Of a DNA stretch of 64,000 bases, positions 23,668 to 53,861 are shown one piece after another. The stretch comes from Geobacillus stearothermophilus ATCC 12980 (GTDB taxonomy: Bacteria; Bacillota; Bacilli; Bacillales; Anoxybacillaceae), in NCBI RefSeq assembly GCF_030369615.1, contig NZ_CP128494.1:2561501-2625500 (forward strand). The letters run 5' to 3'. The position numbers and the translations under genes were made by a program. The notes beneath the pieces are model-generated. The model was not told the origin of the DNA. It searched no databases and saw only the letters and a list, made by a program, of their open reading frames with translations. Positions within the stretch are counted from its first letter, which is position 1. Each line of letters begins with the position of its first letter.

Positions 23668-25626
23668 TCAGCGGAAGATGGCGCGAAGGCCGTCGATATA
23701 AATCGCTCCGGCGTTTTTCCGTCCCGCTTCCGTTTCCATATAACGCACCGGCATCTCCAGCATGAGCGGAAGCGCGACATCGCTAGGCACAGCGGCCTGC
23801 ACATATTTCCAACCGATCCAATCGACATGGCGGGCAAAATCGATCCAAATGCGGCGCCCGCTTCCATCCTGCAGCTGGGCGCGCAGCCAATGGCCGCTTC
23901 CGTCTCCATACACCCACATGCCAATCGCTTGCGGCCGTTTCGAAATCCAAATCGCTTCCTCCCGACTAGCATAGACGCCGGATGTCCCTGGCATCCCGCG
24001 AAAATCATATGAAATTTTCAGCGCCTGCTTTCCTTCTCTCACCTTTTCTGTCGTCCGCTCGACCGCAGCCCCCACATAGTTGACGCCCGATGCATTCCAC
24101 TTCAACTCGTTCTCAAAATCATCAAGCACTTCTTCGCTTTCCCCGTTCTCTTGCGTCTCTTTGTACACAACAAGAAGCGCATTCGCCACCGGACGCGCAA
24201 ATCCATCAGACGGCTTGTTTTCGACTTTGAGCTGCCCGTTTGGCTGGCGGACGACAAAGGTCGAAGAACCGCCGCCATCGAGCGTCATCGCATCGACGGC
24301 GCCAAGCTCATGCATCAGTTTGGCCAGCTCATTCAACGTCATGCCTTGGCTATGAGCAGGCTGGCGGCCATCGACAACGACGAGCATGACATTTCCGTTC
24401 TTGTCAATGCCGACGGCTGTACGCGGATGGACTCCTTTAATCGAAAACGGCTGCACTTTTCCATCCGCCACCAACCGGTATCGGCCGCCGAGCGCTTCTT
24501 TCACCCCACTCCATTCGGGCTGGTCATACTGAAGGGAAATTTCCACCGCATCCCCTTCTTTCGCCTGCCGCAAATAGTCACTCGCCCGGCCATGGCCCGA
24601 TAGCACGAGCTCTCCAGGCTGGAGCGGTTCATTGCCTTGACCGACTACCACTTTCTTCACCGTTCCGGTGACCGTTCCATTCCCGTTCAACACCCCTTGT
24701 ACATTCGTCAGCACGACTTCCGTCCCAAGAGCGTTCGTTTTCGTGGAGGCAGCGAAATACGGGGTGTACAAAATCAACTGATGAGCGCGCCGCGGCTTGT
24801 TGATGCCATCGACGGGATATGAGCCTCCTTCTCCAATTCGAACGCCAATTTGAACATCTGGGTTTCCAATCATCGGCTTTCCATCAGCGCTGATGCCAAA
24901 AATCGTCCGTTCCGCCGCCGGCGTTGTATTCGTCATCACGATCTCTCCCCGGTGCACCATCAAATCGGTCGGCGAACCATCCTCTTTGAAATAATCGCCG
25001 TTCACCGCCGCCAGTACGATTCCGTCGCGGCCATCGTACCGTTTTGCCTGCTCAAGCACCGGTTCAATGCCAAGCACTTGATCATTGGACAGCGCCGTCT
25101 CAATGGCCAGCCTCTCATTCGACGTATCGATGTCAAGCTTGTACACATGCTGCTTGCCGCGCGCGCCGACGATTTCCATTTCCTCTTTTTCCACCCCGGA
25201 GGCGATGCGCGTCGACACCTCCTTTACCACCGTGCCGACCGCCAGTTGTTTCGCTCCGTACCACCCAGGATTGACAAGCTTCAGCTTCTCCTTTGACGGC
25301 GTTTTATACACAACATGCCCTTTGATATTGGTGACGTAATATCCACCGCCAACCCCGTATTGGCCGCCAAACGCCTCGTCATACGAATACACCCGGTACT
25401 GTTCTCCAGGCTGCAACACGCGGACAAACGTCAGCGCCCCGTTTTCCCGTTTCCATAGGTTAATCGGTTTCACGATCTCCAATTTTCCAATCTGCCCCTG
25501 CACGAGGCGCATGCCTTCCCAGTAGACGACATTCGCTCCGGCATCCGCTTCTGCCGCCTGCAGCGCCGTCCATGCGGCCAACACCGCCCCGACCCCAATG
25601 CGGATGATGTTCTTCGCTTTTCCCAC
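23668..25626 (-). CDS. Exported phosphodiester glycosidase-like protein with shared surface domain
   Basis: Exported 652-residue protein in three parts. After a signal peptide (about 1-30) comes the recurring surface domain (about 31-118: V-V-Y-W-E-G-M, G-Q-I-G-K-L, F-G-G-Q-Y-G-V-G-G-G-Y-Y-V, T-P-S-K-E-K-L). Next is a NAGPA/phosphodiester glycosidase domain (about 150-490), with T-A-V-G-I-D-K-N-G, V-V-D-G-R-Q and M-T-L-D-G-G-G-S-S-T typical of the family that removes 1-phospho-GlcNAc-type caps. Last is a beta-sandwich-like tail starting V-L-D-D-F-E, resembling carbohydrate-binding modules. It may trim or modify wall polysaccharide. GTG start. Confidence 0.82.
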   Translation of the reverse strand: MGKAKNIIRIGVGAVLAAWTALQAAEADAGANVVYWEGMRLVQGQIGKLEIVKPINLWKRENGALTFVRVLQPGEQYRVYSYDEAFGGQYGVGGGYYVTNIKGHVVYKTPSKEKLKLVNPGWYGAKQLAVGTVVKEVSTRIASGVEKEEMEIVGARGKQHVYKLDIDTSNERLAIETALSNDQVLGIEPVLEQAKRYDGRDGIVLAAVNGDYFKEDGSPTDLMVHRGEIVMTNTTPAAERTIFGISADGKPMIGNPDVQIGVRIGEGGSYPVDGINKPRRAHQLILYTPYFAASTKTNALGTEVVLTNVQGVLNGNGTVTGTVKKVVVGQGNEPLQPGELVLSGHGRASDYLRQAKEGDAVEISLQYDQPEWSGVKEALGGRYRLVADGKVQPFSIKGVHPRTAVGIDKNGNVMLVVVDGRQPAHSQGMTLNELAKLMHELGAVDAMTLDGGGSSTFVVRQPNGQLKVENKPSDGFARPVANALLVVYKETQENGESEEVLDDFENELKWNASGVNYVGAAVERTTEKVREGKQALKISYDFRGMPGTSGVYASREEAIWISKRPQAIGMWVYGDGSGHWLRAQLQDGSGRRIWIDFARHVDWIGWKYVQAAVPSDVALPLMLEMPVRYMETEAGRKNAGAIYIDGLRAIFR

Positions 25627-25724
25627 TAGTCCTATTTTCCTCTCTTTCTATCATTTTGTTGCCACTGATTCTATTATACGACAAACTTCTACAAAAAGGG
25701 GGATCATTTTCCATTTATTTAGTC

Positions 25725-25760
25725 CAAAAAAAAGAACGTCCCAGCACTGCTGGGACGCCC
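25725..25760 (-). terminator. Terminator of the CAP protein gene
   Basis: CGTCCCAGCA (25737-25746) pairs with TGCTGGGACG (25748-25757); on the minus strand it is followed by TTCTTTTTTTT. It lies 27 bases after the stop at 25787. Confidence 0.85.
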
Positions 25761-25786
25761 TGTAGAAGCGAAAACATCATCCGCGG

Positions 25787-27019
25787 TCACGGAGTATAAA
25801 ACTCTTGAGAGTAGTAGGGTTGATGAAATGAATTGAACGCCACCCCAACGCCGAGGCGGGTAAAGTCCGGATATAAAAGGTTTTGCCGATGACCGAGCGA
25901 GTGCATCCACGCTTCATGGACAAAAATCGCATCGTATTGTCCGTAGGCGATGTTCTCTCCCGCCACGCGATACGCGATGCCACGGCGCTTCAGGCGGTCA
26001 AACGGCGACAGGCCTTGCAAGTTCGTATGAGAGAAGTAGTGATGGACCGCCATATCTTCGCTATGTTCACGGGCGGCCGCCGCCGCCTTCGCATCCCACG
26101 CGAGCGCCGGAAGTCCGTGCAAGCGGCGCGCCGCATTTGCTAAATCAAAAATTTGATATTCATAGGCCGTGCGCAGCTCCTCCGTCGGCGTTCCGTAAAA
26201 CCCGGGCTTTTCATCCTCGAGCGCCCGATTGACGACAAGCACGCCATCCACCCGGTTGTTGTTGTACCGGTCATAAAAGAAGGTGACGTAGCGGCCGTTG
26301 ACAAGATAGGTCCCGTATTCGTCATTTTGAATGTCGTAGACGGCATCCTTTTTTTGGATGAAGGCGAGCGGCCGACCGTAGCGCGCTTCCACCACCGTTT
26401 TCGCCGTTCCGATGCCCGTTCCTTTTTTCGTTTGGACAATCGGCTGATTCGTGTACATCGCCGCCACCCGATCACGGTCATAGCTCACCATCAAAAAGTT
26501 TTTGTAACCGCCTTGATCATACGCCTCCCAATATAGGCCGTAGGCGTTTTTCGTCTTGCGCTTCGCCGTGCCGTACATCGCTTCGACCTTGGCGCGCGAG
26601 TCGCCGATCGCCACCCCGTTCATCGTGACATCCGCCATGCTTGTTTTCGCCTGCTGCACGCATAAAGCAGCGGCCAACTTCTCTCTTGACGGCGTTTCAT
26701 AGCGGACGCGGGCATCGTTCTTGATCCCATATCCTCGGCCGACACCAAAATAGCCGCCGCCTAGCGCGTACACGCGATACACCGCACCGCTTGGCAGCGT
26801 CTTCACTGCTTTGTTCGACAACCATAGCTCTGTCGGCGCCACCACCGTCACCCGGCCGATTTGCCCGGGCTTCAGTTCAGCACCGTCCCACCACACTTTT
26901 TCCGTGCCGACACGTTCTCCGCATCCCCCCGCCTTGACCATGGATGAACTCGGCATCCAAAGCCATCCGGCCGCCGCCAACAGCATTCCAATTGCCACGG
27001 CCTGCACCCATTTCCTCAC
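25787..27019 (-). CDS. Exported CAP-domain protein with shared surface domain
   Basis: Exported 410-residue protein. Signal peptide (about 1-30), then the recurring surface domain (about 40-118: V-W-W-D-G-A, G-Q-I-G-R-V, G-Y-F-G-V-G-R-G-Y, Y-E-T-P-S-R-E-K-L). A CAP-associated N-terminal domain follows (about 130-275), made of two G-x-S/K-x-x-V-E-x-x-Y-G repeats as in Bacillus YlbC. The C-terminus is a CAP/SCP domain (about 285-410) with H-S-E-D-M-A, H-Y-F-S-H-T-N and S-L-G-H-R-Q-N-L-L, which keep the usual histidines and glutamates. The role of bacterial CAP proteins is unsettled. GTG start with GGAAGGAG nine bases upstream. Confidence 0.87.
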   Translation of the reverse strand: MRKWVQAVAIGMLLAAAGWLWMPSSSMVKAGGCGERVGTEKVWWDGAELKPGQIGRVTVVAPTELWLSNKAVKTLPSGAVYRVYALGGGYFGVGRGYGIKNDARVRYETPSREKLAAALCVQQAKTSMADVTMNGVAIGDSRAKVEAMYGTAKRKTKNAYGLYWEAYDQGGYKNFLMVSYDRDRVAAMYTNQPIVQTKKGTGIGTAKTVVEARYGRPLAFIQKKDAVYDIQNDEYGTYLVNGRYVTFFYDRYNNNRVDGVLVVNRALEDEKPGFYGTPTEELRTAYEYQIFDLANAARRLHGLPALAWDAKAAAAAREHSEDMAVHHYFSHTNLQGLSPFDRLKRRGIAYRVAGENIAYGQYDAIFVHEAWMHSLGHRQNLLYPDFTRLGVGVAFNSFHQPYYSQEFYTP

Positions 27020-27361
27020 TTCCGCCCGCTCCTTCCTTTCTCTTTTTCTTTCATCATAGAGGTCTTTCCGTCAAAAGAAAAGAGAAAAAAGAATGATTTC
27101 GAAGAAAAAGAGGGGGCTTTGGTGGCGCAAAGGTCAACATTTCGTCAAACAAGCTTCTCACCGGACTTGGCTAAGGGGCGAAATATAGGTTAAAATGGAT
27201 CATATTATTCTTCCATTTTCGTGAGAGAGGAGCATACTTTATGAAGATCATGAAAAAATTTCTAACAGTCTCAGCGCTAAGCGCCGGAATCCTTCTGTCG
27301 CCATTTCACACCCACGATGCGCAAGCAAAAGTTTGGTGGAATGGCATGGAATTGGTGCAGG

Positions 27362-28975
27362 GTAACTATTCAGCCACATCATAAAGTGAGCTGAATATTT
27401 TCTTCTTTCCTTGTCTATGATGTGAATATTGATAGACAAGGAGGTGAATCGCATGTTGACGGTACAACAAGCTGTATTTACAGTTGAGAGCTTAATCGGC
27501 AAAGTTCAACAACAAAAACAGCTCATTCATCAACTCATTCAAGAAAATGAACATTTGCGTCACGAAAACAAACAGCTACGCAAAGAAAATGAACAACTGA
27601 AGTACCGTGTTCAAGAGCTGGAAGCACGCACGAAAAAAAAACAGCTCCAATAGCCATTTGCCCCCATCTTCTGACCGTTTTGAGAAAAAGCGTTCCTCCC
27701 GCGAGCCGTCTGGCAAAAAGCCTGGTGGGCAAGAGGGACATGAGGGGAAGACGCTCCGTCAAGTGGAACATCCACATCATCGTGTCGTCCACCGTGTGCA
27801 TACGTGTCAAGGATGTGGAGCTTCTTTGCGTGAAGTCAAACCGTTCAAAGTCGATATCCGTCAAGTGTTTGATGTCCCTCCTGTGGCGATCGAGGTGACA
27901 CAACATGAACGTGAAGTGAAATCGTGTCCACATTGTCGATGCGTGCAACAAGCCGAATTCCCATCCCATGTCACGAATCATGTGCAATACGGTCCACGGC
28001 TCACGGCGCTCGTTGTTTATTTACATCATATCCAATTGATCCCGTACAAGCGTTTAAGTGATACAATCGAAGCGTTATATCAACACTCGATTAGTACAGG
28101 AACCCTTGCCAATATGGTGAAACGAGGACGCGAAGCGCTGGAATCAAATATGGACATCATCGAAGACGCCTTACTTGAATCCAACATCCTGCATGTCGAT
28201 GAAACGAGTTTGCGCATCAATGGGAAACTCGCATGGGTGCATGTCGCGTGTACATCGAGATATACATACTTGGCTCCTCACGCTTCTCGTGGAAAAAAAG
28301 CGACCGATGAGATCGGGATTCTTCCCCGATATGAAGGGACGATGATGCACGATGCGTTCGGTACGTATCCGAAATACACACATGCCACCCATGCCCTTTG
28401 TCATGCCCACCATTTGCGTGAGTTAAAAGGATTCATCGAACAGGGGCATACGTGGGCGATGCGCATGACCACGTTTCTGTTAGCCGCCAAGCAAGCCGTC
28501 GAAGCCCATCACGGTGCACTTTCCGAAGAAGAAGCGAGACGGTGGGAACGAGTGTATGATCGCATCCTAGAAAGAGCACAACACCGATTAGAAACGATGA
28601 CGCCTCTTCCGAAAAAAGCACTCGCTTTTGTTCGACGCCTTCAAAAACGAAAGGAAGAAGCGCTGCGTTTCTTACGTGAAGTACATGTTCCCTTTGACAA
28701 CAACCAAGCCGAACGCGATCTTCGCATGGTTAAAGTCAAAGAGAACATTTCGGGTACATTTCGCGAAGAAACATTCGCGCAGTCGTTTTGCATCGCAAGA
28801 AGCATCGTTTCCACACTGACGAAACACGAAAAAAACGTGTGGGATTCGTTATGTCTTCTGTTGGCAGGCGAAACGATCGATCGAGTTCTTTCCGCTACCT
28901 AGGGCATTTTCTATGACCGAAATGCCCTATTTGTGCTGGGCTTTTTTATACACTAGCACTGGGGTGAATAGTTAC
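27362..28975 (+). mobile_element. IS66-family element, ISBst12-like, copy 1
   Basis: 1614 bp bounded by inverted repeats GTAACTATTCA (left, then GCC) and its complement (right, GGGGTGAATAGTTAC), flanked by the 8-bp duplication GGTGCAGG (27354-27361 and 28976-28983). One transposase frame only, as in the ISBst12 group of IS66, with no tnpA/tnpB accessory genes. A hairpin AGGGCATTT/AAATGCCCT stands near the right end. Apart from one extra A in a poly-A tract it appears identical to copy 2. Confidence 0.93.
27453..28902 (+). pseudogene. IS66-family transposase, frameshifted (copy 1)
   Basis: The ATG at 27453 lies five bases after GGAGGTGA. The N-terminal leucine-zipper-like coiled coil (about 20-70) is followed by a tract of nine A at about 27632-27640; copy 2 has eight. 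The extra base shifts the frame and stops translation at 27653. The rest, in the other frame, holds a zinc-ribbon C-x2-C pair, the IS66 catalytic domain (H-V-D-E-T, L-C-H-A-H-H-L-R-E-L) and N-N-Q-A-E-R-D-L-R. Slippage on the A-tract could still give some full-length protein, but the intact copy shows that eight A is the working form. Confidence 0.85.
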
Positions 28976-29607
28976 GGTGCAGGGACAGATCGGCAAATTA
29001 ACTGTTTTGAAAGATACCGAGCTTTATAAGTTACAAGGAGAGAAGAAAGTCTACGTCAGAACGTTAAAAACCGGCGGAGTCTATCGCATTTACACGTTTA
29101 AACCTGGCATGTTAGGTTTAGGCGGCGGATATTATGTCGATCGCGATGCCCGGGTAAAATACGAAACTCCTTCCAAAGCAAAACTCAATCAAGTTAAAAT
29201 AGAACAGCTGTTCCGTGGAGTAAAACTCGGCATGTCCACTTCTCAAGTCAAGAAGTTGGAAACCGCAAAATTTATCCTACAAGAAAATATAGACGGCGTC
29301 CAAGCTTGGGTCTATTCGACTTCTCTTTTCGGATATCATACGCTGCTCGTCTATGGATTTGAGAACGGAAAGCTTGCCTTCTACGGCTACTCGTTCGATG
29401 CCGGCCAGGAGTATACAAACGATCAGCTCACAGCGATTTATAACAATCTGAAACAACAGCTCATCACGCTATTTGGAAACCAGTATGAACAGTCCGATTC
29501 TGGCCAAGGCTACCCGCCTGCACTCGCATTTCACAAAGACGGCCTTGTGATTGCCCTTTCCTATGATGCGGACGGGTTGGCGGTTACGGTCACGAGTGAA
29601 CAATAAC

Positions 29608-29961
29608 GTGCAAAAAGCGAGGCTGCCCTATTGATTCGGACTGCCTCGCTTTCTGTTTTTACTTCCCATTCACCAACTTCAACTTCTCCTTTGACGGCGT
29701 TTCGTAGCGGATGTGCGTGTCGATGTCGGTCACGTAATACCCGCCGCCGACCGCGTACTGCCCGCCGAAGCGCGCGTCATACCCGTAGACGCGGTACACT
29801 TCCCCAGGCTGTAAGATGCGGACGAACACAAGGCGCCCATCCTTCGTCCGTTTCCATAGATTGATCGGCTTTTGCACCGTCAAGCGGCCGATTTGCCCTT
29901 TTTTCAACTCCACGCCATCCCAGTAGACTTTTTTCACTTGGCCTGGAGGAGTGGTTGGCTT
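29608..29961. repeat. 354-bp dispersed repeat, copy A
   Basis: Covers the terminator and the 3' end of the pullulanase gene (surface domain plus the T-T-P-P-G-Q-V-K-K linker). It is nearly identical, base for base, to 39747-40100, and about 210 bases of it recur at 36716-36929. Confidence 0.9.
29612..29660. terminator. Bidirectional terminator
   Basis: AAAGCGAGGC pairs with GCCTCGCTTT, with A-run left and T-run (CTGTTTTT) right. It ends both the interrupted gene on the plus strand and the pullulanase gene on the minus strand. The same structure recurs at 39750-39797. Confidence 0.85.
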
Positions 29962-32900
29962 TCTCGGTTTCTCTTTTGGTTTCGATGGAGACGGTTTTTG
30001 CGGCGGTCTGGATGGAGGCGCTTCGTTTCCCGGTGGAGCTGTGCCGCCCGGCGGAACGCTCCCCCCAGGGGATGCGCCATCCGATGGACCACCGCTGCCC
30101 GGAGAGGTGCCGTTGCCTGGTGTTGCCCCTCCGTCATGGGACGGCGTTTCGCTTCCCGGAGAATCGCCGTTGCTTGGCGGCGTTGTCAACTTCCCTTCAC
30201 GCAACTGCTTCGTCTCCAAATTTAGCACGTAATCTTTCGTATTTTTCGCAATGGCTCCACCGTCGTTTTTGAACACGGCTGCTTTGCTTTCCGCTGACGG
30301 TTCGATATGGATCGCCACTTCTTTTTGCTGCGGAGCCGGCGTAAAGGTGTAGACAAATGCCATCTGATCATTGATCGGCACCCGCTCGCCATTGATCGTC
30401 AAAACACCGTTTTTAATGGCATTGCCCTTGATCGTCACTTGACTCCCTTGTTTTTGCACCTCTTCGATGACCACCGGCATATCAATCCAGCGCAAAATGC
30501 GGTCTTCCACAACCATCGTATTGTTTCCTTCATTGTGAACGGTCACTTTCAAATCCGTGCCGATCGAGCCGTATCCATAATAACTGACATCATCATCCCC
30601 AACGTCTGCAGGCGTATGATCAGCCAGCCCTTCCTGATCCCACGACCCGCCTTTCACATACTTATACGTGATCGTTTCCCCTTCTTGCACTTCAGTTGTA
30701 AATTGCCAATCAGGCGTCACCGCTCCATTGCGCGACATTTCCCATGCCCCTGTGTTCCAGCCGTTCAGGCTGTTCGGAATCGTAATGCGGGCATCGAGCG
30801 GCGTATAATCCGGCGCTTTCACTTTAAAAATCACCTTCACCATCACAATGTCCGGCGTCACCTTGACCGTGTTCGACTCCACAACATTGCCGGCGCGGTC
30901 ATACAACTTGACAACATACGTGTACTCGGTGCCGTTTTCGACATCGTAGTCTGTAAATGAATCGCCGATCGAAGTGGTTGTATGCACGATATCACCGTTG
31001 CGCTCGATGACTAACAAATAAGCATCTCCATCTTTTTTCCCAACAAACGTCCATGATAAATTCACTTGTCCGGATTCAACCGCAGGCTGCCGCAGCTCGA
31101 TGGCGTCTGCTGGCGCTATTTGGTCGCTGCTGTCTGCCGCAAACGTCACTTGCTTCTCTGCTGTATACACCCATTCCTTGCCGAGATTGGTCGTCAGCGC
31201 ATAACGATACGTATACGTCCCTGCGGCGAGCGGAGTGAAGGAAGCCCGGAACACGTTGGCGTCGCCGTCTTGTCCTTGGTAGGACGCTCTGTATTCTTTC
31301 CATTTTTCGTCATGCGGGCCTTTCACTTGCAACACCGCTTGCAACCCATCGGCTGCTCCTTTGCTTGTCACACCGTCGATGTTCACTTTGACATCGATTG
31401 GTTGCGGCTGGGACAAGTCGAGTGTGGCATTGCTTAACGTGGTCACGAACTGGACATTGTCGCTCGTCAGCGGATAATGAGGAACGACGCGATTCGTTTC
31501 CACCTTTGGCGACTCATTCCCGTTCTCATCGACGGCGGTAACGGCAAAGTAATACGCAGTCCCGTTCGCCAACGAATCGATCGTCACGGAAGTCTCGTTC
31601 GTTTCCACCGCTAACGTATAACCAGCCCCTTGAATGGTTGATTGGTACACCCGATACTTCGACGCTTGCCCTTCCCAAGTAAGCGTCACGCGACCAACCG
31701 CGGCGCTTGCCTCCAAACTTCTGACCGCGGCAGGTATTTTCACCGTCACCGTCCCAAACATCATCCGTCCATCCAGGGCCGGAATCGTGACCGTCAACGT
31801 TCCGCCAGCGACCGTGGCTTTCTCGCCATCATGCAACTCATCCGTGAGTACGGTGCCATTCGGAAGCAACGAAGCGACGTCAAGCGCCACCGTCTTGTCC
31901 TCATTGCCGCGGTTGACGGCAATGAGCGCCACTTCACGCCCGTATTGGCGGGCAAATACGTATACATCCCCTTGCGCATACACCGTCTTGATGTCGCCAT
32001 GGGCCAACAACGATTGATGGCGCTGGCGAATGTGCCCCACTTTCTGATAATGGGACAACAGATTTTGATCTTCTTTGCCCCACGGATACGTGCGGCGGTT
32101 GTCTGGGTCTTTTGAGCCTGTTACTCCCGCTTCATCGCCGTAATAAATCGTCGGCGCCCCCGGATATCCCATCTGCAAAATCGCCGCTAGCTTGAGCCTC
32201 TTTTTCCCAAGTTCCTCATTATAATTCGGATCAAGCTCCGCCCGCTCGGATGAATCCGTTCCGTTCCCAAGCAGAAAGACCGCCCGCGCCGTGTCATGCG
32301 AACCGATTAAGTTCATCAGCGCATAAAACGCTTCACTTGGGTAGTCTTCTCTTATGGCCGTCAGCCGTTTGTCCGCCTCTTCTGCATTTCCGTTTTTCAA
32401 AAAGTCAAGCACCGCCCCGCGGAACCGGTAGTTCATCACGGAATCGTACTGGTCGCCTAGAAAATATTTCGATGCGTCATCCCAAATTTCCCCTAAAATG
32501 AGCGGCTGCTCCCTCTCTTTTAACGTCGGACCGCGGTCGTACGACCCTTGAAGCAATTCTTGGCGGAACTCGCGCCAAAACGCCGGATCCACCTCATTCG
32601 CTACATCCAACCGCCACCCAGAGGCGCCGCGGGCAATCCAGCTTTTCGCCACCGAATCCGATTCACGGAAAATGTAATTCGCGAGCGCATCGTTGTTTAA
32701 TTCACTCGGATACGATACCTTCTCCCCTATCACGGACTTAAACTCAGGCAAGCTGTCATAGCCCCACCATGACTGATACTTATAACGACCATCGACTTTT
32801 TCGTTTTCAATATTGAACCAAAGATGAAACCCATACGGGCTGAACGTCTGTCCCTCTTGTTTGAACTTCTCTTCCACTTGTCTCCGCGCTTCTTCCTCGC

Positions 32901-34611
32901 TCAATCCTTTTTCATTCATCAAATCGTAAACCGCTTCCCAATATTCATACGCGCCGACGGTCGGATAGCGGTGGTAGCGGTCAAAGTAAATCGAATCGTC
33001 GGATACGTGGTTGAACACCCCGTCTAAGATGAGATGCATTCCCCGGTTCGCAAGCGCTTGCACAAACGATTGGAATTCTTCCGGGGAACCGAACATCGGA
33101 TCCAATTCTTTGTAATTGCTCGCATCATATTTATGGTTCGATGGCGCATTGGCGATCGGATTTAAGTAAATCGTGTTCACCCCAAGCGACTGCAAATAAT
33201 CCAACTTTTGTTCAATTCCGGCGATGTCTCCGCCGAAAAAGTCATTCGACCATTCGCCGTCGCCATCGTAGCCGCTCGTTCCTTTCAGGCGCGGATTATC
33301 GGGCAAATCCGACCAATCGCGATGCTCAATCGGCTGCGCCCCGCGTGCCTGCTGCTTGCTGTTGTCGTTGGAAGGATTGCCGTTAAAGAACCGATCCGGG
33401 AAAATTTGATACACAACCGCTTCTTTCATCCAGTCGGGCGTCCTGTAATCCGGATCATACACCGTCAACTGGAACAGCTCTGCACGGCTGTCCACGGCTT
33501 TCCCCCATTGCCCTTCTTGCGTATCTTCGCCGTATTCCACTTTCGTTCCGGCATCTTGAGCAATAAATTTATACCCGTACACCCCGGGCGTCGAAGGGGT
33601 GAACACAGCCTCCCAATATTCATCATCCCCGAGCACGCCGACTTTTTCCATCGTGTAGACGTTGGCCGTGCCGGTCGTCGTATTTTTCACATACACATCC
33701 GCTTTCGTCAAATCGCCTTTTTTCGCCGCTAAGCGAAGCGTCACCTTCGTTCCCGCTTTCACCGCCCCAAACGGCTGGCGGTACAACGTATCCCATGTAT
33801 TGTGTTTTAATCGGTCTTTCTGAACAACACCGTCAGAGCCATTGGGGTTGTAGTCGGTGTACACCTCTTTTGTTTTCGCATTGAAGAAGAATGTAATGAT
33901 CGTCGTTTCCAAAACATTTAAGCGTGCATTCTCTTGTGGGTAGCTCTCATTCCAATTGTTTCCGAGGACAATTTTATATTCATACGATCCTTTCGGCACC
34001 TGCGCCTTAAACGTGTACACCGAGTCAAAATCATCATCGGTCAACAGCGTCGTCGATGTCCCCGGAGTCCATCCGTTGCTCTCCCTCTCATAGCCGATGG
34101 CCGGCAGCACCGTCCCGACAAGACGCGGCTGTTTCTCCTTCGCAATCGCCGTATACCATGTCGAATCCGCGATCGCATGCGTCCGGTCATTGTAATAAAA
34201 CGTCACCTCGGTTTGCCGATCCAGCTTCAACACCAGATTTGCGCCATTGCGCCCACCGGCGCCGTAATTTTCATCCCAGCTGCCGTTGACCGCAATTTTG
34301 TACTCATAGGTCCCGGCTGGCAGCGTCCCGGTGAATGTATAAAGCCCATTCCCTTCATCATGCATCCTCGTCGCCAATGCCCCCGGGTCCCATTCCGCCG
34401 TATGGCCCAACTCATCTTGCAAATTGCCGACTAGCGTGATCGTCCGTGGCTGCGAGGCCGTGGATTCGGCCGTCCACCGATGCTCCCCATTCCCTAGAGC
34501 GCTAGAACTTCCTGTTTCGTTCGCAGCGGCAACCGCCTGGAAAGGAGTCAATGCCAGCAACAACACCGATGCCAAAACCAATGATAGCATTCTCCTTGCC
34601 CTCTTGATCAT
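29659..34611 (-). CDS. Exported amylopullulanase (GH13) with starch-binding domain and C-terminal surface domain
   Basis: Large extracellular enzyme of about 1650 residues hydrolysing alpha-1,6 and alpha-1,4 links in pullulan and starch. Order: signal peptide (about 1-30); two similar N-terminal beta modules (about 50-140 and 155-245); GH13 N-domain; catalytic barrel (about 385-830) with D-G-V-F-N-H, nucleophile Asp in G-W-R-L-D-V-A-N-E, acid Glu in L-G-E-I-W-D-D and I-G-S-H-D-T; fibronectin III-like domains; a CBM20-like domain (L-N-G-W-N-T-G-A-W); a Gly/Pro/Ser linker; and the recurring surface domain (last 90 residues). The ATG at 34611 has GGGAG six bases upstream; a TTG at 34641 is less likely. 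It is divergent from the alpha-amylase gene and shares its regulatory region. Confidence 0.93.
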   Translation of the reverse strand: MIKRARRMLSLVLASVLLLALTPFQAVAAANETGSSSALGNGEHRWTAESTASQPRTITLVGNLQDELGHTAEWDPGALATRMHDEGNGLYTFTGTLPAGTYEYKIAVNGSWDENYGAGGRNGANLVLKLDRQTEVTFYYNDRTHAIADSTWYTAIAKEKQPRLVGTVLPAIGYERESNGWTPGTSTTLLTDDDFDSVYTFKAQVPKGSYEYKIVLGNNWNESYPQENARLNVLETTIITFFFNAKTKEVYTDYNPNGSDGVVQKDRLKHNTWDTLYRQPFGAVKAGTKVTLRLAAKKGDLTKADVYVKNTTTGTANVYTMEKVGVLGDDEYWEAVFTPSTPGVYGYKFIAQDAGTKVEYGEDTQEGQWGKAVDSRAELFQLTVYDPDYRTPDWMKEAVVYQIFPDRFFNGNPSNDNSKQQARGAQPIEHRDWSDLPDNPRLKGTSGYDGDGEWSNDFFGGDIAGIEQKLDYLQSLGVNTIYLNPIANAPSNHKYDASNYKELDPMFGSPEEFQSFVQALANRGMHLILDGVFNHVSDDSIYFDRYHRYPTVGAYEYWEAVYDLMNEKGLSEEEARRQVEEKFKQEGQTFSPYGFHLWFNIENEKVDGRYKYQSWWGYDSLPEFKSVIGEKVSYPSELNNDALANYIFRESDSVAKSWIARGASGWRLDVANEVDPAFWREFRQELLQGSYDRGPTLKEREQPLILGEIWDDASKYFLGDQYDSVMNYRFRGAVLDFLKNGNAEEADKRLTAIREDYPSEAFYALMNLIGSHDTARAVFLLGNGTDSSERAELDPNYNEELGKKRLKLAAILQMGYPGAPTIYYGDEAGVTGSKDPDNRRTYPWGKEDQNLLSHYQKVGHIRQRHQSLLAHGDIKTVYAQGDVYVFARQYGREVALIAVNRGNEDKTVALDVASLLPNGTVLTDELHDGEKATVAGGTLTVTIPALDGRMMFGTVTVKIPAAVRSLEASAAVGRVTLTWEGQASKYRVYQSTIQGAGYTLAVETNETSVTIDSLANGTAYYFAVTAVDENGNESPKVETNRVVPHYPLTSDNVQFVTTLSNATLDLSQPQPIDVKVNIDGVTSKGAADGLQAVLQVKGPHDEKWKEYRASYQGQDGDANVFRASFTPLAAGTYTYRYALTTNLGKEWVYTAEKQVTFAADSSDQIAPADAIELRQPAVESGQVNLSWTFVGKKDGDAYLLVIERNGDIVHTTTSIGDSFTDYDVENGTEYTYVVKLYDRAGNVVESNTVKVTPDIVMVKVIFKVKAPDYTPLDARITIPNSLNGWNTGAWEMSRNGAVTPDWQFTTEVQEGETITYKYVKGGSWDQEGLADHTPADVGDDDVSYYGYGSIGTDLKVTVHNEGNNTMVVEDRILRWIDMPVVIEEVQKQGSQVTIKGNAIKNGVLTINGERVPINDQMAFVYTFTPAPQQKEVAIHIEPSAESKAAVFKNDGGAIAKNTKDYVLNLETKQLREGKLTTPPSNGDSPGSETPSHDGGATPGNGTSPGSGGPSDGASPGGSVPPGGTAPPGNEAPPSRPPQKPSPSKPKEKPRKPTTPPGQVKKVYWDGVELKKGQIGRLTVQKPINLWKRTKDGRLVFVRILQPGEVYRVYGYDARFGGQYAVGGGYYVTDIDTHIRYETPSKEKLKLVNGK

Positions 34612-34672
34612 CCCCCGCTCCCTTCTCCTTTGTTTGGCCAACTTCCTTCTCTCCTCTCCTTTTTATTTCTTT

Positions 34673-36654: not shown

Positions 36655-36712
36655 CAAAAAACACGGCCTTGCCCGCCATGAATGGCGGCACAAGGCCGTG
36701 TTTGATGTTACC
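36655..36712. terminator. Terminator after amyS
   Basis: AAACACGGCCTTG pairs with CAAGGCCGTGTTT, with an inner stem GCCGCC/GGCGGC-like part. The A-run at left also allows use on the minus strand. Confidence 0.8.
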
Positions 36713-36929
36713 ATCCATTTGCTTGCTTCAACTTCTCCTTTGACGGCGTTTCATAGCGGATGTGCGTGTCAATGTCTGTTACGTAATACCCGCCGCCGAC
36801 CGCGTACTGCCCACCGAAGCGCGCATCATACCCGTAGACGCGGTACACTTCCCCAGGCTGTAAGATGCGGACGAACACAAGGCGCCCATCCTTCGTCCGT
36901 TTCCATAGATTGATTGGCTTTTGCACCGT
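36708..36929 (-). pseudogene. Orphan C-terminal fragment of the shared surface domain
   Basis: The last 74 residues of the recurring surface domain, from V-Q-K-P-I-N-L-W to a stop after K-Q-A-N-G-W, with DNA almost identical to the pullulanase and 5'-nucleotidase copies. Homology ends sharply at 36929; the upstream sequence is unrelated and gives no start or signal peptide. It is the tail of a lost exported-enzyme gene, cut off by a deletion or insertion. Confidence 0.85.
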
Positions 36930-37032
36930 TTGATGATTGTACCGTGATTTTCTTCGCGAGGAAGTGAGACGAAATGACGATTTTCGACCTTTGAACCATT
37001 TCATATATGTCTCAAACATTCCTGGGTTACCA

Positions 37033-39746: not shown

Positions 39747-40100
39747 CATGCAAAAAGCGAGGCTGCCCCATTCATTCGGACAGCCTCGCTTTCTTGCTTA
39801 CTCCCCATTCACCAACTTCAACTTCTCCTTTGACGGCGTTTCGTAGCGAATGTGCGTGTCGATGTCGGTCACGTAATACCCGCCGCCGACCGCGTACTGC
39901 CCGCCGAAGCGCGCGTCATACCCGTAGACGCGGTATACTTCCCCAGGCTTTAAGATGCGGACGAACACAAGGCGCCCATCCTTCGTCCGTTTCCATAGAT
40001 TGATTGGCTTTTGCACCGTCAAGCGGCCGATTTGCCCTTTTTTCAACTCCACGCCATCCCAGTACACTTTTTTCACTTGGCCTGGAGGAGTGGTTGGCTT
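39747..40100. repeat. 354-bp dispersed repeat, copy C
   Basis: Nearly identical to 29608-29961, including the terminator and the surface-domain coding end. Confidence 0.9.
39750..39797 (-). terminator. Terminator of the truncated 5'-nucleotidase gene
   Basis: AAAGCGAGGC pairs with GCCTCGCTTT, as in the copy at 29612-29660; on the minus strand it is followed by TTTGC. Confidence 0.75.
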
Positions 40101-40870: not shown

Positions 40871-41259
40871 CGAGGAGACCCCGACTTCTAAGCGAGAGCG
40901 AAAGTCGGGGAGGAATCGCCCTTCCTCCTTTCTTTTGTATATGATAGAATAAGAATGTGGAGAAAACCGTTGAATCAAGGCACTCCAATCCCCGTTACTC
41001 GATGTAGGGAGTTGGTTGCAGGAAACGTTGCAACCGTAAAACATCGAGCGTACATCCGTCTGTTGTGCGTGGAAGTCAAGTACTGCCTACAGACATGCCG
41101 AGCCACTCGGTAGCGATATAGGCATGACCTATGTCGTTGGGTAGTCGTCAACCTGCCCCTGATGCAACCCCAAGTCAAGGAAGGAGGACGAAGTCCGTTC
41201 GCACTTCTAGGGAGTTGCAAGCCCCCGCTTCAAGCGTTAGCTAAGTGGGGGTAGTTGAC
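40871..41259 (-). mobile_element. IS605-type non-autonomous element (type 2), tnpB deleted
   Basis: About 389 bp without transposase or tnpB. On the minus strand one end reads GTCAACTACCCCC with hairpin CCCCCACTT/GAAGCGGGGG; the other carries CCCCGACTT/AAGTCGGGG followed by TCTCCTC. An AAAGGAGGA site near the second end looks like the old ribosome site of a lost tnpB, directly joined to the right-end hairpin. These ends resemble IS605/TnpB elements known from Geobacillus, where the right end encodes the end of the omega guide RNA. It cuts the 5'-nucleotidase gene. Confidence 0.6.
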
Positions 41260-43715: not shown

Positions 43716-43724
43716 CCTTGATTT

Positions 43725-47074: not shown

Positions 47075-47088
47075 CTTCTCGTCTCCTC

Positions 47089-47598: not shown

Positions 47599-47615
47599 CC
47601 TTTTCCCTCCTAAAA

Positions 47616-47655
47616 CAAAAATAGCCTCAATTCCCTGAAAGGAATTGAGGCTTTG
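47616..47655. terminator. Stem-loop upstream of the RadC-like gene
   Basis: GCCTCAATTCC pairs perfectly with GGAATTGAGGC; on the minus strand it is followed by TATTTTTG, so it can terminate S-layer read-through or act as a leader attenuator. Confidence 0.65.
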
Positions 47656-47707
47656 TGACTGTAGGTTCACAATCATAATATATATTTGAAATTATGTTTG
47701 GTACAGA

Positions 47708-47755
47708 TTAAAAAAAAGAAAAGCCCCGCAGAGATTTCTCTCCGCAGAGCTTTTC
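47708..47755 (-). terminator. S-layer gene terminator
   Basis: AAAAGCTCTGCGGAGAGA pairs with TCTCTGCGGGGCTTTT on the minus strand, followed by CTTTTTTTT. It lies 34 bases after the S-layer stop. Confidence 0.85.
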
Positions 47756-50700
47756 GACAATCTTCTAGGTTTATCAGGAAATCATCCATTACGATGCTGA
47801 TTTTGTACCAATTTGAATACCTGTAATAGTATAGTCTTTATAACCTACAACTTTACCGTTTTCATCAACTTCAATAATTGAGATATGTTGTCCGTCTTGC
47901 GCATCAACCTCTACTGTACCACTAGTTACTTCAGTACCATAAGTTGTTCGTACAGTAGTATCAGTATATGCAATACCTTTTACTGGAGCTGCTGCTGCAC
48001 TTGAACCAGCCGCTGCTGCATATAATTTATGACCATTTGCTAAATCAGAAACTGCTAACAGTGTTTTACCAGTAGTAACTTGGTTACCACCAGTTGGAGT
48101 AACTGTTGCAGTGAAACCTGTTTTATCAGCTGCAACACTTAAATCAGCTGCTTCAACTGTAAATGTTTTGTAGCCAACAACTCTATCACTGCTATCTACT
48201 TCAATAACAGTAATAATTTGGCCAGCATTTGCAGCAACTTCTGTTGTACCTACAGTGATTTCATTTGCAAATTTAGTTGAATTACGTGTAGTTCCAACAG
48301 CTGGCGCAGGTACTGCTGAATCGTCTACAGCATAATATAATTTGTGACCAGATTTGATTTTATCTGTTGCAGTAAATTTAGTTTTACCTACACCAGTTAC
48401 ACCTGGCACTAAGTCTAGACCAGTTACAGTCACACCATCTTGAGTTGCAGCAGGAGCTTTAACTGTGATTGCGATTGGAGCAATCTTAGAATCTTCATTA
48501 AACACTAGTGTTAATGTTACTGTACCTGCTTTCTTAACAGCTAATCCAGAAATGCTAGCATCATCTTTTAAGTTATCAACATTAGATACAGAACCAATTA
48601 CAGATGTGTCGCTGCTTACGATGCCGCTTAATACAGATTTAAGAGCTTGTAATTTTTCATTAGTGTTAGGAGTTGCAGCAGAGTCAACCATTGGATTACC
48701 GTTTTGGTCTTTGATATCTAAGTTAGCTAGTAACTTAGCTAAAGCATCACCATTATCAGCAGCATCAAGCTCAATAAGGTCTGCTTTCTTAGTTACTACA
48801 GTAGCTTTTAATGTAGTATCGATGACTTCAACATCTACAGTACCTAGAGTGACAGTTCCAAGCTTAACTGTTAAAGTTTCTTTACCTACTTTTTTGCTAC
48901 CGTTGTCAGTGATTACGTATACAGTATCACCATTTGCAGTAGATTTACTTGCATTAACGATTACACCATTTGTATCAGTTGCTTCACTTGTAATAGTTAC
49001 ATCGTTAGTGATGTCGCCAACAATATTTCCGTTAGCATCTACAGCATAAACTTTTAATTGAACATCGTTGTTAGCTGGACTTTCAGTTGCGCTCTTGTCG
49101 ATTTTACCATCGTCAAGAACTTTAATTTGGTAGTTAGCTACTGGTCCGCCAGCAACTACATTTACAGGTACTTTAACTTCTTTAGTACCACTCTTAATTG
49201 TGATAGTAGTAGAACCTTCAGCAACACCGTTCACAGTTACAGTGTACTCACTTTGACCAATGCCAGAGTTAGATACAGAAACTGTAGCTGTTTCAGTTTT
49301 GTCAGAAGTTACGTTTACATTACCAGTGAATTTGTTACCGTATTGGTCTTTTAATGTTACTTTGAATGTAGCTTTTTGACCTTTAGCAACGGATACACCT
49401 GTGCTGTCGACTGCAATTGTTTCTAATACTGGGTTAGCTTTAACAGTCACAGGGATTGTCTTAGTAACCTCACCATATTTAACCTTAACCAGTGCAGTAC
49501 CTGGAACGATTGGAGTTACGCTACCATCAGGAGCAACTACTAACACTTCAGGATTTAGAGATTCAAATGTATAGTCAGTTCCAGCTACTTTTCCAGTTAA
49601 TTCATTACCATATTGGTCTTTGAACTTAGCTGTTAATGTTAAAGTACCGCTAGAGATTTGGTTACCATCTTTATCAAATGCGTTACCATTTGCGTAAAGA
49701 GTTACAACCTCTTTGTTGTCCTTAGTTAATTTTAATTCACTAACTTCTGCAGCTTTTTCATCCTCAACTGCAAGGATTACGTTACCAGTTGTAACATTTG
49801 TGCCTTTTACAGTAGCGTTAACAATAACTGACTTCTTACCAGTAGTATTGATGAATTTACCTTGAGTTAATTTTTCACTTGAAGTGAATTCTAACTCGAA
49901 GCCAGATTTAATTACGTTACCAGCAGCATCCTTAACAGTTACGTATTTAGTCAAATCAACTGCACTATCTTCAGGTAACTTATTGAAGTTGAATGTAATA
50001 GAAGCTGGTACTGGCTTGTTGTAAGTGAATTCGTTTGTGCTAGTTTCAAATTCTTTACCAGCTGTATCTTTTAAACCAGATGTTACAACAGTGTAAGTTT
50101 TACCGTCTACTAATGTATCATAAAGAGTTACAGTAGCAGTTAATCCACTCTCAGATACTTCAACAGACTTAGGATAAAGTTTAGTTTCAGTACCTTTTAA
50201 AGTAATAGAGAAGTTTTTAGGAATTGCTGTTGCTTTGTCTACAGGCTTAGTAAATGTAACTTTGAAGCTTGTAGAGTCAATCGCACTTACACTCTCAACC
50301 TTCGGCGTCAATGCTGCTTCATACGCCGCCTTGGCGTCTTGTGCTGCTTTTTGCAGTTCGGCTTTGAACGCATCGGTTACTTTCGATACGTATTGGTTGA
50401 CTTGGTCAAGCGCGGCTTTCGCTTTGTCCAAGTTGCCGGCTTTGACAGCGTCTTGCGCTTCACGCGCTTTCATGGCAACGGTGATGTCGTAGATCAATCT
50501 GTCGCGCAATGCTTGAGCATCGGCTTTGAACGTCGAACGGAGGAGTTCGCGCGTCGATTGGCCGTAGACGCGGTCGAGAATGACCGTGCGCGTTTTGAGC
50601 TCGTACGAAATTTTGTGGTAGAGCTCTTCTGCTTTTTTCAGATCTTTCGCATCGACGGCTGCTTTGAGTTCTTGGCGCATTTTGTCTAATTTTGTCGCAT

Positions 50701-50897
50701 AGTTGTAAGCGTCGATGTACGTAGCCACGCGCGCTTCGCCCGATTTCGGGTTGGCTTTGAATACATACGTTTCGTATATAGCTTGCAAATCAGCCAAATA
50801 CGCGTCTTTTTTCGCGCCGCCGGCTTTGTTCACGACAGCAACCGCGTTTGCATACGCTTGTTTTGCTTTGTTGTAGGCGGCATATACATCTTTAATG

Positions 50898-52510
50898 GTA
50901 ACTATTCACCCCAGTGCTAGTGTATAAAAAAGCCCAGCACAAATAGGGCATTTCGGTCATAGAAAATGCCCTAGGTAGCGGAAAGAACTCGATCGATCGT
51001 TTCGCCTGCCAACAGAAGACATAACGAATCCCACACGTTTTTTTCGTGTTTCGTCAGTGTGGAAACGATGCTTCTTGCGATGCAAAACGACTGCGCGAAT
51101 GTTTCTTCGCGAAATGTACCCGAAATGTTCTCTTTGACTTTAACCATGCGAAGATCGCGTTCGGCTTGGTTGTTGTCAAAGGGAACATGTACTTCACGTA
51201 AGAAACGCAGCGCTTCTTCCTTTCGTTTTTGAAGGCGTCGAACAAAAGCGAGTGCTTTTTTCGGAAGAGGCGTCATCGTTTCTAATCGGTGTTGTGCTCT
51301 TTCTAGGATGCGATCATACACTCGTTCCCACCGTCTCGCTTCTTCTTCGGAAAGTGCACCGTGATGGGCTTCGACGGCTTGCTTGGCGGCTAACAGAAAC
51401 GTGGTCATGCGCATCGCCCACGTATGCCCCTGTTCGATGAATCCTTTTAACTCACGCAAATGGTGGGCATGACAAAGGGCATGGGTGGCATGTGTGTATT
51501 TCGGATACGTACCGAACGCATCGTGCATCATCGTCCCTTCATATCGGGGAAGAATCCCGATCTCATCGGTCGCTTTTTTTCCACGAGAAGCGTGAGGAGC
51601 CAAGTATGTATATCTCGATGTACACGCGACATGCACCCATGCGAGTTTCCCATTGATGCGCAAACTCGTTTCATCGACATGCAGGATGTTGGATTCAAGT
51701 AAGGCGTCTTCGATGATGTCCATATTTGATTCCAGCGCTTCGCGTCCTCGTTTCACCATATTGGCAAGGGTTCCTGTACTAATCGAGTGTTGATATAACG
51801 CTTCGATTGTATCACTTAAACGCTTGTACGGGATCAATTGGATATGATGTAAATAAACAACGAGCGCCGTGAGCCGTGGACCGTATTGCACATGATTCGT
51901 GACATGGGATGGGAATTCGGCTTGTTGCACGCATCGACAATGTGGACACGATTTCACTTCACGTTCATGTTGTGTCACCTCGATCGCCACAGGAGGGACA
52001 TCAAACACTTGACGGATATCGACTTTGAACGGTTTGACTTCACGCAAAGAAGCTCCACATCCTTGACACGTATGCACACGGTGGACGACACGATGATGTG
52101 GATGTTCCACTTGACGGAGCGTCTTCCCCTCATGTCCCTCTTGCCCACCAGGCTTTTTGCCAGACGGCTCGCGGGAGGAACGCTTTTTCTCAAAACGGTC
52201 AGAAGATGGGGGCAAATGGCTATTGGAGCTGTTTTTTTTCGTGCGTGCTTCCAGCTCTTGAACACGGTACTTCAGTTGTTCATTTTCTTTGCGTAGCTGT
52301 TTGTTTTCGTGACGCAAATGTTCATTTTCTTGAATGAGTTGATGAATGAGCTGTTTTTGTTGTTGAACTTTGCCGATTAAGCTCTCAACTGTAAATACAG
52401 CTTGTTGTACCGTCAACATGCGATTCACCTCCTTGTCTATCAATATTCACATCATAGACAAGGAAAGAAGAAAATATTCAGCTCACTTTATGATGTGGCT
52501 GAATAGTTAC
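50898..52510 (-). mobile_element. IS66-family element, ISBst12-like, copy 2 (in the S-layer gene)
   Basis: 1613 bp with the inverted ends GTAACTATTCACCCC and GTAACTATTCAGCC, flanked by CTTTAATG at 50890-50897 and 52511-52518. Orientation is the same as that of the S-layer gene. The size, 8-bp duplication and 482-residue transposase agree with what I recall of ISBst12, an element first found switching off an S-layer gene in this species. Confidence 0.95.
50971..52419 (-). CDS. IS66-family transposase (copy 2, intact)
   Basis: 482 residues from the ATG at 52419, five bases after GGAGGTGA; an upstream TTG eight codons earlier is less likely. Coiled coil at about 15-65, a basic Ser/Gly-rich stretch, a zinc-binding region with C-Q-G-C-G and C-P-H-C-R-C (about 110-165), then the IS66 catalytic domain with H-V-D-E-T, A-H-H-L-R-E-L and N-N-Q-A-E-R-D-L-R (the aspartates and glutamate forming the DDE-type site). 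The eight-A tract that is nine in copy 1 is intact here. It is therefore the source that could mobilise both copies. Confidence 0.95.
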   Translation of the reverse strand: MLTVQQAVFTVESLIGKVQQQKQLIHQLIQENEHLRHENKQLRKENEQLKYRVQELEARTKKNSSNSHLPPSSDRFEKKRSSREPSGKKPGGQEGHEGKTLRQVEHPHHRVVHRVHTCQGCGASLREVKPFKVDIRQVFDVPPVAIEVTQHEREVKSCPHCRCVQQAEFPSHVTNHVQYGPRLTALVVYLHHIQLIPYKRLSDTIEALYQHSISTGTLANMVKRGREALESNMDIIEDALLESNILHVDETSLRINGKLAWVHVACTSRYTYLAPHASRGKKATDEIGILPRYEGTMMHDAFGTYPKYTHATHALCHAHHLRELKGFIEQGHTWAMRMTTFLLAAKQAVEAHHGALSEEEARRWERVYDRILERAQHRLETMTPLPKKALAFVRRLQKRKEEALRFLREVHVPFDNNQAERDLRMVKVKENISGTFREETFAQSFCIARSIVSTLTKHEKNVWDSLCLLLAGETIDRVLSAT

Positions 52511-52709
52511 CTTTAATGTCCGGGAATTGGCCCGTTTCCGTTACCGTATGGCTGTACGTATAGTATGCTTCTTTCATTTGCGCTTTCGCTTGGCTGACGA
52601 CCGTCGCCACGTCCGTTGCTGCTTGGGAAGCATGCGGGTTGGCTGCGACGAAAGCGCTCGCTGCTACAGCGCTGGCTGTGGCGAGTTTGACTGCTTTCTT
52701 TTTGTCCAT

Positions 52710-53041
52710 AAAGCCTAAAATCCCCCTTCGTTTTTATGAAACTTTAAGACAATGATCCTAAACGGCTGCCGTTTAGTAGATTCATTGCCTAAAAGGTGCT
52801 AACATGAACCAAGATCATCCTGTGTGTCCAGATGATAGACTTATTAGCAAGGCTATCATTCAGTGCTAGCACTTTCACATCATTCCTTAATGTTCTACGT
52901 CTTCTATAATAATACATTTTTTTTCTAAATTCTAGCCCTAAATACAAATTTTTTAGAGAATATGCCATTGAAATTATTTCCATCGATGGCGACATTGATA
53001 TGAATATGCCTGTAACAGAAATTTAGAACAATATTTTGGCA
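52710..53041 (-). promoter_or_regulatory. Long upstream/leader region of the S-layer gene
   Basis: No gene seen. On the minus strand it holds a perfect hairpin CTAAACGG-CTG-CCGTTTAG (52762-52780) with further pairing outside, a 12-bp palindrome AGTGCTAGCACT (52862-52873), and an AT-rich promoter-like stretch with TATTAT near 52905. GGGGG stands 13 bases before the ATG, an unusually long spacing. A long structured leader that stabilises the message is common for S-layer genes. Confidence 0.55.
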
Positions 53042-53090
53042 GTTTGATGGTTTTGGTTGGCAAACATTTTGTGCAAAAACATCAATCGTT
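53042..53090 (-). terminator. Probable terminator of the 259-residue surface protein gene
   Basis: TTGATGTTTTT pairs with AAAACCATCAA with one mismatch, overlapping the end of the gene at 53082. Confidence 0.5.
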
Positions 53091-53861
53091 TTTCTTCACC
53101 GTGACGTCCATCGGTTGGCCAAGCGTCATTTTGACGACGTCATAGCGGTCATTCAAGTACAAATCGAGAAAGCGGAACTGTCCTGCGAATTGTTCCGGAC
53201 TGTTCGTGATGGAAAATTGCAGCTGCATTGCGTAATCGCCGCTGTTGGCGAGCTGTTCGGCGATTTTTTCGATCTCTTCCTTCGGCACGTTGTACGCTTT
53301 TAAGTAAGAGATCGAGTCGGCGATCGCTTCGGCGTTGTCGTTGAAGAAAATGGAGAGCGTCACCGTTGCGCCGTCGATGCGGCCTTCAAGCGGCAATGAC
53401 ATATTTTGGCCGTATAAGTACCAGCCGAACAGACGATTTCCTTTTTGCCGCTCAATGACGAACGGAACGGATTCATTTCCTGCCTGAAGAATGTATTGCC
53501 CTTTCAATGAGCGGGCGACAAGGGCGAGAAGTTCGTCTTTTGTGAACGGCACGTATTGGATGGCGGCCCCTTGTTTGGCATACAGTCCGCCGCCGAGGCT
53601 GTAATAGACGGCGCCGCCTGCCCGTTTTTGGCTGTAGACGCGATACTCGCGCCCTTGTTTCGCCGTCATGGCGGTCTGCCATGCCGCTCCGTTCAGGCGG
53701 TATAGAGGCGTGTCGCGCAAAATGACGACTTTGCCGATCATGCCTTGTTTCCATTGGACTTGCCCCCATTGGACGGCGGCGTCAACTGTTTGTCCATTTC
53801 CTCCGAGGGCGATGGCGGCGGCGAGGCAGATGGCGGCTGCCATTTGGGATGCATGTTTCAT
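53082..53861 (-). CDS. Exported protein with divergent shared surface domain
   Basis: Exported 259-residue protein. Signal peptide (about 1-28), then the most divergent member of the recurring surface domain (about 30-115: V-Q-W-G-Q-V-Q-W-K-Q-G-M-I-G-K-V, Y-R-V-Y-S, Y-S-L-G-G-G-L-Y), then about 140 residues of alpha/beta sequence without known family. GGAGG nine bases before the ATG at 53861 decides the start; an ATG at 53888 lacks a site. It lies 45 bases after an NlpC/P60 endopeptidase gene, probably in one operon, and just before the S-layer gene on the same strand. Confidence 0.75.
   Translation of the reverse strand: MKHASQMAAAICLAAAIALGGNGQTVDAAVQWGQVQWKQGMIGKVVILRDTPLYRLNGAAWQTAMTAKQGREYRVYSQKRAGGAVYYSLGGGLYAKQGAAIQYVPFTKDELLALVARSLKGQYILQAGNESVPFVIERQKGNRLFGWYLYGQNMSLPLEGRIDGATVTLSIFFNDNAEAIADSISYLKAYNVPKEEIEKIAEQLANSGDYAMQLQFSITNSPEQFAGQFRFLDLYLNDRYDVVKMTLGQPMDVTVKKND

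Follow-up and report, generated by a model that had tools for sequence, protein, structure and literature searches.

How are the exported proteins encoded at one surface locus of Geobacillus stearothermophilus ATCC 12980 held on the cell wall? The stretch analyzed here (64,000 nt of contig NZ_CP128494.1, assembly GCF_030369615.1, positions 2,561,501-2,625,500; in the following the window) encodes seven copies of a domain of about 85 residues, which an earlier note on this DNA had taken for a wall-anchoring module and a replacement for SLH domains, bound perhaps to a diacetamido-mannuronic polymer. The SLH domain is indeed absent, with 0 matches to PF00395 in the own genome, and there is no match to PF04230, the family of the CsaB-type pyruvyl transferase, either. 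The analysis reported below makes it likely that the domain anchors proteins to the wall non-covalently, as a new SH3b-like module on the diacetamido-mannuronic secondary cell wall polymer (SCWP) made by the wbp/Wzy cluster.

A search of the own genome (E ≤ 1e-3) places all seven copies within the window and none elsewhere, with E-values of 2e-32 to 8e-44 and a next match at 0.18. Leave-one-out hidden Markov models (HMMs), for which the three near-identical C-terminal copies were removed together, recovered every copy among the 495 open reading frames (ORFs) of the window (E 2e-12 to 3e-34, 42 to 113 bits), the maximum in ten shuffled sets of these ORFs being 12.8 bits. Both searches thus confirm the seven copies listed previously (Table 1), with some corrections. 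The placement of the domain within the ORFs stands, and the ends of four of them are amended to 29659-34641, 36708-37019, 39798-40988 and 53082-53888. The third gene (27241-29606), formerly read as one intact product, is split by an insertion sequence after the first domain residues, and the copy in the orphan fragment lacks about 20 residues at its start. The C-terminal copies in the amylopullulanase, the orphan fragment and the 5'-nucleotidase ORF, a remnant truncated at its N-terminus, share about 96% DNA identity over 204-364 bases and are, judged by their sequences, recent near-duplicates. Therefore they do not count as three independent witnesses, and the window contains five distinct domain lines. 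The end of the pullulanase gene (29659-30000) is repeated at about 96% DNA identity in both remnants, which suggests that the anchor was recently duplicated or subject to gene conversion.

No convincing match of the domain to any Pfam, NCBIfam or PDB entry was obtained, in agreement with the earlier failure to name a family. The sole curated-library match over a window copy is NF047898 (E 0.038, copy at 53082-53888). Several candidate identities were rejected. SLH is matched by none of the seven domain proteins. For SLAP (PF03217) the pullulanase copy gives no match and two of 84 members match weakly (best E 1.9e-4), and neither the Pfam bacterial SH3 families (e.g. SH3_3, PF08239) nor CWB2 are matched by the seven window proteins or the 84 members. 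Models of the SbsC-type SCWP-binding domain (PF22360, PF18058, PF18316) match the S-layer protein 47789-50833 only and not the domain proteins, and the best PHROGs match (E 8e-4) is to a family of unknown function. The AlphaFold2 model is all-beta and confident (predicted local distance difference test 95.3, predicted template modeling score 0.84), as expected for the small beta-type module proposed before. Its top Foldseek matches in the PDB are the cell wall-binding domain (CBD) of the LysPBC5 endolysin (6ilu, E 0.029) and the teichoic-acid-binding domain of SlpA (E 0.038), both with a probability of 1.00; the former shares only 13-15% identity with the domain, with a sequence profile E of 0.65. 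A weak fold similarity to domains of lysostaphin and ALE-1 is also seen. By this model the fold would be nearest, though weakly so, to SH3b-like wall-binding domains. In a subtilase (P0069, 1273-1454) three short copies follow one another in tandem, as do two copies in a LysM protein (L112, 4014-5759), hence the core barrel may comprise only about 60 residues.

Protein searches with the domain gave 60, 2 and 7 relatives, the 2 being clusters akin to the divergent copy only, and a scan of genome contigs confirmed 102 relatives, the best 80 of which were kept as 77 loci. These best 80 of 102 come from Geobacillus, Anoxybacillus, Cytobacillus, Bacillus, Neobacillus, Mesobacillus, Psychrobacillus, Jeotgalibacillus, Rossellomorea, one uncultured Bacillaceae and a single organism named Paenibacillus. 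The 218 domain ORFs, a redundant set, form 37 groups by their non-domain part; 30 of the 218 were scanned in Pfam, seven single-ORF groups lying outside the scans. Apart from its partners in the window (phosphodiester glycosidase, CAP and amylopullulanase), the domain is combined with NlpC/P60, Amidase_2, Amidase_3, glucosaminidase, VanY/M15, M23, SLT, YkuD, LysM and PdaC/DUF3298 regions and further with GDSL lipase, alpha/beta hydrolase, 5'-nucleotidase, leucine-rich repeats and others. Regions of wall hydrolases, wall-binding modules or tape-measure proteins are present in 43 of the 218 ORFs, which make up 11 of the 37 groups, to judge from the scanned members. The partner families act on substrates as unlike as nucleotides, starch, peptidoglycan and lipids, which fits the unrelated enzymes noted before. 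A general carbohydrate-binding or structural module, by which secreted enzymes bind their substrates and which is no anchor, would fit the occurrence on the amylopullulanase and other secreted enzymes, but is scarcely credible with partner substrates so unrelated and with the domain replacing an SLH triplet on one enzyme (see below).

Phages employ the domain as well. It forms the end of the endolysin of phage PVJ1, whose gene adjoins the holin, accompanies Amidase_2 on two viral contigs and occurs in three phage tape-measure proteins and also in that of phage Perkons. At a prophage-like site of genome G002 it is found on an Amidase_2 protein and on a tape-measure-like protein, the latter judged by eye. 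Such use is occasional, because only 2 of 50,697 phage records match the domain and, in G. stearothermophilus phage GR1, the endolysin is described as using LysM (PMC10237291). Exported proteins that are unrelated to one another thus have the domain in common with phage lysins, and it is exchangeable with a known anchor, SLH; the peptidoglycan hydrolase and endolysin partners together with this exchange support the proposed anchoring role.

The exchange is observed in genome G012 of the same genus. Its amylopullulanase is 86% identical to that of the window over residues 1-833 and 88% over residues 832-1522, and in place of the domain its C-terminal end consists of three SLH repeats (Pfam SLH, three stretches, E 2e-36), which bears out the suggested replacement. 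G012 has 13 SLH matches and a PF04230 match of CsaB strength (since the family is broad, only E < 1e-40 was counted as CsaB-like), with no WbpB match at E ≤ 1e-40 and no Wzy or WbpI at the cut-offs given below. SLH near the C-terminus is also described for the amylopullulanase ApuASK of Anoxybacillus SK3-4 (PMC3709733). The SLH-ended gene of G012 is itself interrupted by an insertion (L120, 11067-12739).

The same opposition of domain and SLH is found at the level of genomes. In a first sample of 101 relatives the domain occurs in 21, of which 17 are multi-copy, i.e. with two or more copies. At least seven SLH matches are present in 0 of 17 multi-copy genomes vs 49 of 84 others (within the family 0 of 16 vs 21 of 25), two to five matches being found in 6 of the 17. 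PF04230 reaches CsaB strength in one multi-copy genome (G038), with weaker matches near 1e-31 in G002 and G008. WbpB at 77% identity or more is present in 17 of 17 multi-copy genomes and, among the other relatives, only in G003 and G006. When the sample is widened to 397 genomes of the order, 42 contain the domain, namely 20 of the 23 with WbpB at ≥ 66% identity vs 22 of 374 others. The three domain-free genomes of the former class are G167 and G158, without WbpI at ≥ 66%, and G253, without a Wzy of this type.

Eighty genomes (all 51 domain-bearing ones of both samples, the 26 domain-free ones of the wider sample with the most similar WbpB, G003, G012 and G029) were tested for Wzy (E < 1e-100) and WbpI (≥ 66%). 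With WbpI and Wzy together the domain is found in 27 of 28 genomes, although in G006, which belongs to this class, only 186 of 462 Wzy residues match. With WbpI but without Wzy it is present in one of 13 (G038), with Wzy but without WbpI in none of three, and with neither in 23 of 36. The contrast of 27/28 with 1/13 has a Fisher value of 2e-8, uncorrected for kinship. All 11 genera in which the pair occurs have genomes with the domain, and in the five genera where WbpI was seen but never this Wzy, the domain is missing from all 10 genomes with WbpI; G068, in one such genus, has a single copy and neither gene. Sixteen loci of up to 20 kb were read, and there the domain-free genomes are without WbpI (G167, G158) or without this Wzy (G253, G336, G003). 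The domain therefore follows a particular polymer and not the sugar alone. The expected co-occurrence with the wbp operon accordingly holds for the pair, not for WbpI by itself. What is shown here is a correlation, from which we infer that the domain physically binds the diacetamido-mannuronic polymer; its exact sugar epitope and its binding residues are likewise inferred. Among 81 loci searched, 12 combine a domain gene with homologues of WbpE, TagO and SecA2. Ten of these (L096-L104 and L106) carry the name Psychrobacillus in nine cases and Bacillus in one, and the other two are L108 and L109.

Several observations weigh against this reading or limit it. The domain also occurs where these polymer genes are missing, which goes part of the way toward the refutation named in the earlier note, as the WbpI and Wzy pair is absent from 24 of the 51 domain-bearing genomes; the copy number is one in 14 of these, two in five, three in one and 4 or 5 in four, so that 19 hold one or two copies. 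The cut-offs for Wzy and WbpI, as well as the 66% cut-off for WbpB, were chosen after the tables had been seen, and WbpB predicts the domain much less well if matches of any identity are counted (E ≤ 1e-60; 21/87 vs 21/310). Finally, the stretches read of the G012 locus contain no NAGPA or CAP homologue, for which reason the exchange of anchors in G012 is documented by one enzyme, the amylopullulanase. Several of the exceptions, among them G353, G409, G294 and G177, belong to one family, f44. In G353 and G226, both without WbpI/Wzy, a divergent domain is carried by proteins of about 300 residues (L127, 5198-7796; L128, 4402-5328), the ends of which resemble, by eye, the PdaC/DUF3298 protein of L062. 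G353 has at least 17 SLH matches. This divergent domain may represent a second subfamily with another ligand.

The pair-less genomes would be accommodated if the SH3b-like module bound peptidoglycan itself, through its glycan or peptide, and if the correlation with the polymer reflected linked inheritance of a surface locus. The resemblance to lysostaphin and ALE-1, the many peptidoglycan hydrolases among the partners and the frequent adjacency of domain genes and polymer cluster agree with such a target. Peptidoglycan is universal in these bacteria, yet the domain tracks the polymer genes within one genus and swaps with SLH, and 12 of 13 WbpI-positive genomes without this Wzy are also without the domain, which leaves direct peptidoglycan binding rather unlikely.

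A further alternative is that the domain binds the SbsC-type S-layer protein and hangs enzymes on the lattice rather than on the wall. PF22360 is above cut-off in 16 of the 17 multi-copy genomes among the 101 relatives and, on an ORF of 352 residues, in five genomes without the domain; the most divergent window copy adjoins the S-layer gene. The exception is G011, where PF22360 is not matched in spite of seven copies, although another S-layer protein is possible there. Phage endolysins, which meet the wall from inside, and tape-measure proteins carry the domain too, and lattice binding is accordingly very improbable.

For the polymer-binding anchor the following mechanism is envisaged. A signal peptide would export the protein, and the barrel, located at either chain end, would fold after export and reversibly hold the protein on the SCWP containing 2,3-diacetamido-mannuronic acid. 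The polymer, which the wbp/Wzy cluster (2.9-17 kb of the window) would produce, is itself held on peptidoglycan. The domain would thus do the job of SLH and pyruvylated SCWP in sister strains, and in some phages the module would let endolysins bind the wall and would also belong to tail proteins.

In comparison with known anchors, SLH has the same presumed role, several partners of the same kind and the same position on the amylopullulanase. The fold of SLH is a helical triplet. The domain, in contrast, is predicted to be a single all-beta barrel, has no sequence match to SLH and occurs with WbpI/Wzy, mostly without CsaB-strength PF04230 (1/17). The S-layer proteins SbsC, SbsA, SbsD and SgsE represent a third type of SCWP-binding domain, and SbsC is reported to bind an SCWP of N-acetylglucosamine, glucose and a diacetamido-mannosamine uronic acid (PMC8559796). 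The ligand of the SbsC-type domain is probably the same polymer, and both modules are present in the window, but the domain serves enzymes and not the lattice; the window cluster would then make the polymer bound by SbsC, and the domain would bind that polymer. In Lactobacillus, by contrast, SlpA bears SLAP on the S-layer protein itself. CWB2 and PSII of Clostridioides difficile likewise pair a lineage-specific domain with a lineage-specific wall polymer (PMC8559796), although CWB2 works as three tandem repeats. Fold comparison with CWB2 and other anchors was confined to Foldseek-type searches of the domain model. The endolysin LysBT1 reportedly contains SLH (PMC12285257); it resembles the present case as a prophage lysin bearing a host-type protein anchor, though of another family.

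The principle of a domain paired with a lineage-specific wall polymer is hence already known, whereas neither this family nor its pairing was found in the libraries and open-licence papers searched. HMMA may be a precedent: if it carries the domain, wall binding may already have been measured with the domain unnamed. The balance is somewhat in favor of a wider reading, in which an unrecognized anchor family reads one specific Wzy-made polymer and more than the rare sugar, polymer cluster, SbsC-type S-layer, SecA2 and anchor form a cassette that switches as a whole with SLH/CsaB within a genus, and some Bacillales phages have copied the anchor as a lysis key. There appears to be another non-covalent anchor besides SLH, CWB2 and SLAP, paired with a polymer of its own, in Geobacillus, Anoxybacillus, Cytobacillus, Psychrobacillus, Jeotgalibacillus and others. 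It would explain the retention of surface enzymes in diacetamido-mannuronic strains with few or no SLH domains, would aid the prediction of endolysin target range and could provide a display tag.

Table 1. Positions of domain copies and other features in the window.
Feature	Position	Strand	Basis
Domain copy, N-terminal, in phosphodiester glycosidase (NAGPA) protein 23668-25626	25267..25527	-	Pfam and domain search
Domain copy, N-terminal, in CAP_assoc_N and CAP protein 25787-27019	26654..26896	-	Pfam and domain search
Interrupted gene, signal-peptide-like start and first domain residues	27241..27360	+	Sequence read
Interrupted gene, remainder of domain copy, ORF 28977-29606	28974..29219	+	Domain search
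Domain copy, C-terminal, in amylopullulanase 29659-34641	29665..29928	-	Pfam and domain search
Domain copy in orphan fragment 36708-37019, first ~20 domain residues missing	36717..36962	-	Domain search
Domain copy, C-terminal, in 5'-nucleotidase remnant 39798-40988	39801..40067	-	Pfam/NCBIfam and domain search
Most divergent domain copy, N-terminal, in protein 53082-53888, adjoining S-layer gene	53496..53774	-	Domain search
Insertion sequence copy 1, transposase-like ORF within 27429-28902, inside domain of third gene	27361..28975	+	Nucleotide comparison
Insertion sequence copy 2, interrupting S-layer gene	50898..52511	-	Nucleotide comparison
SbsC-type S-layer protein, main part	47789..50833	-	PF18316, PF22360, PF18058
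Piece reading as N-terminal start of S-layer protein (putative)	52488..52709	-	Sequence read
Putative Wzy, oligosaccharide repeat unit polymerase	6648..8036	-	TIGR04370, 123 bits (cut-off 40)
WbpI-type UDP-sugar 2-epimerase (NCBIfam name wecB)	8049..9116	-	Family match and gene order
Wzx-like flippase, WbpD-like acetyltransferase, WbpA-like dehydrogenase, WbpB-like oxidoreductase, Wzz-like protein, WbpE-like aminotransferase	9140..15673	-	Order and family
TagO/WecA-type transferase (Glycos_transf_4)	15889..16977	-	Family match
SecA-family ATPase, called SecA2 here, kept beside domain genes in other genera	17238..19631	+	Locus comparison

The two insertion sequence copies are 99.94% identical over 1615 bp. 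Since the second one cuts the SbsC-type gene (47789-52709), this gene probably yields no intact S-layer protein in ATCC 12980. In the polymer cluster the epimerase is presumed to be WbpI by gene order, and the wbp and wz names of the genes at 9140-15673, given by order and family, are taken to denote the diacetamido-mannuronic acid pathway and export. Elsewhere in the window, a two-gene unit (37589-39108) without NCBIfam match at E ≤ 0.01 looks like an AbiEi/AbiEii pair. In Psychrobacillus and at other loci the SecA-family ATPase and its neighbor (17238-20563) are conserved next to domain genes, and the two perhaps constitute a dedicated exporter. A 133-residue protein without assigned function (23083-23484) is represented by a homologue close to domain genes at 31 of the 81 loci searched.

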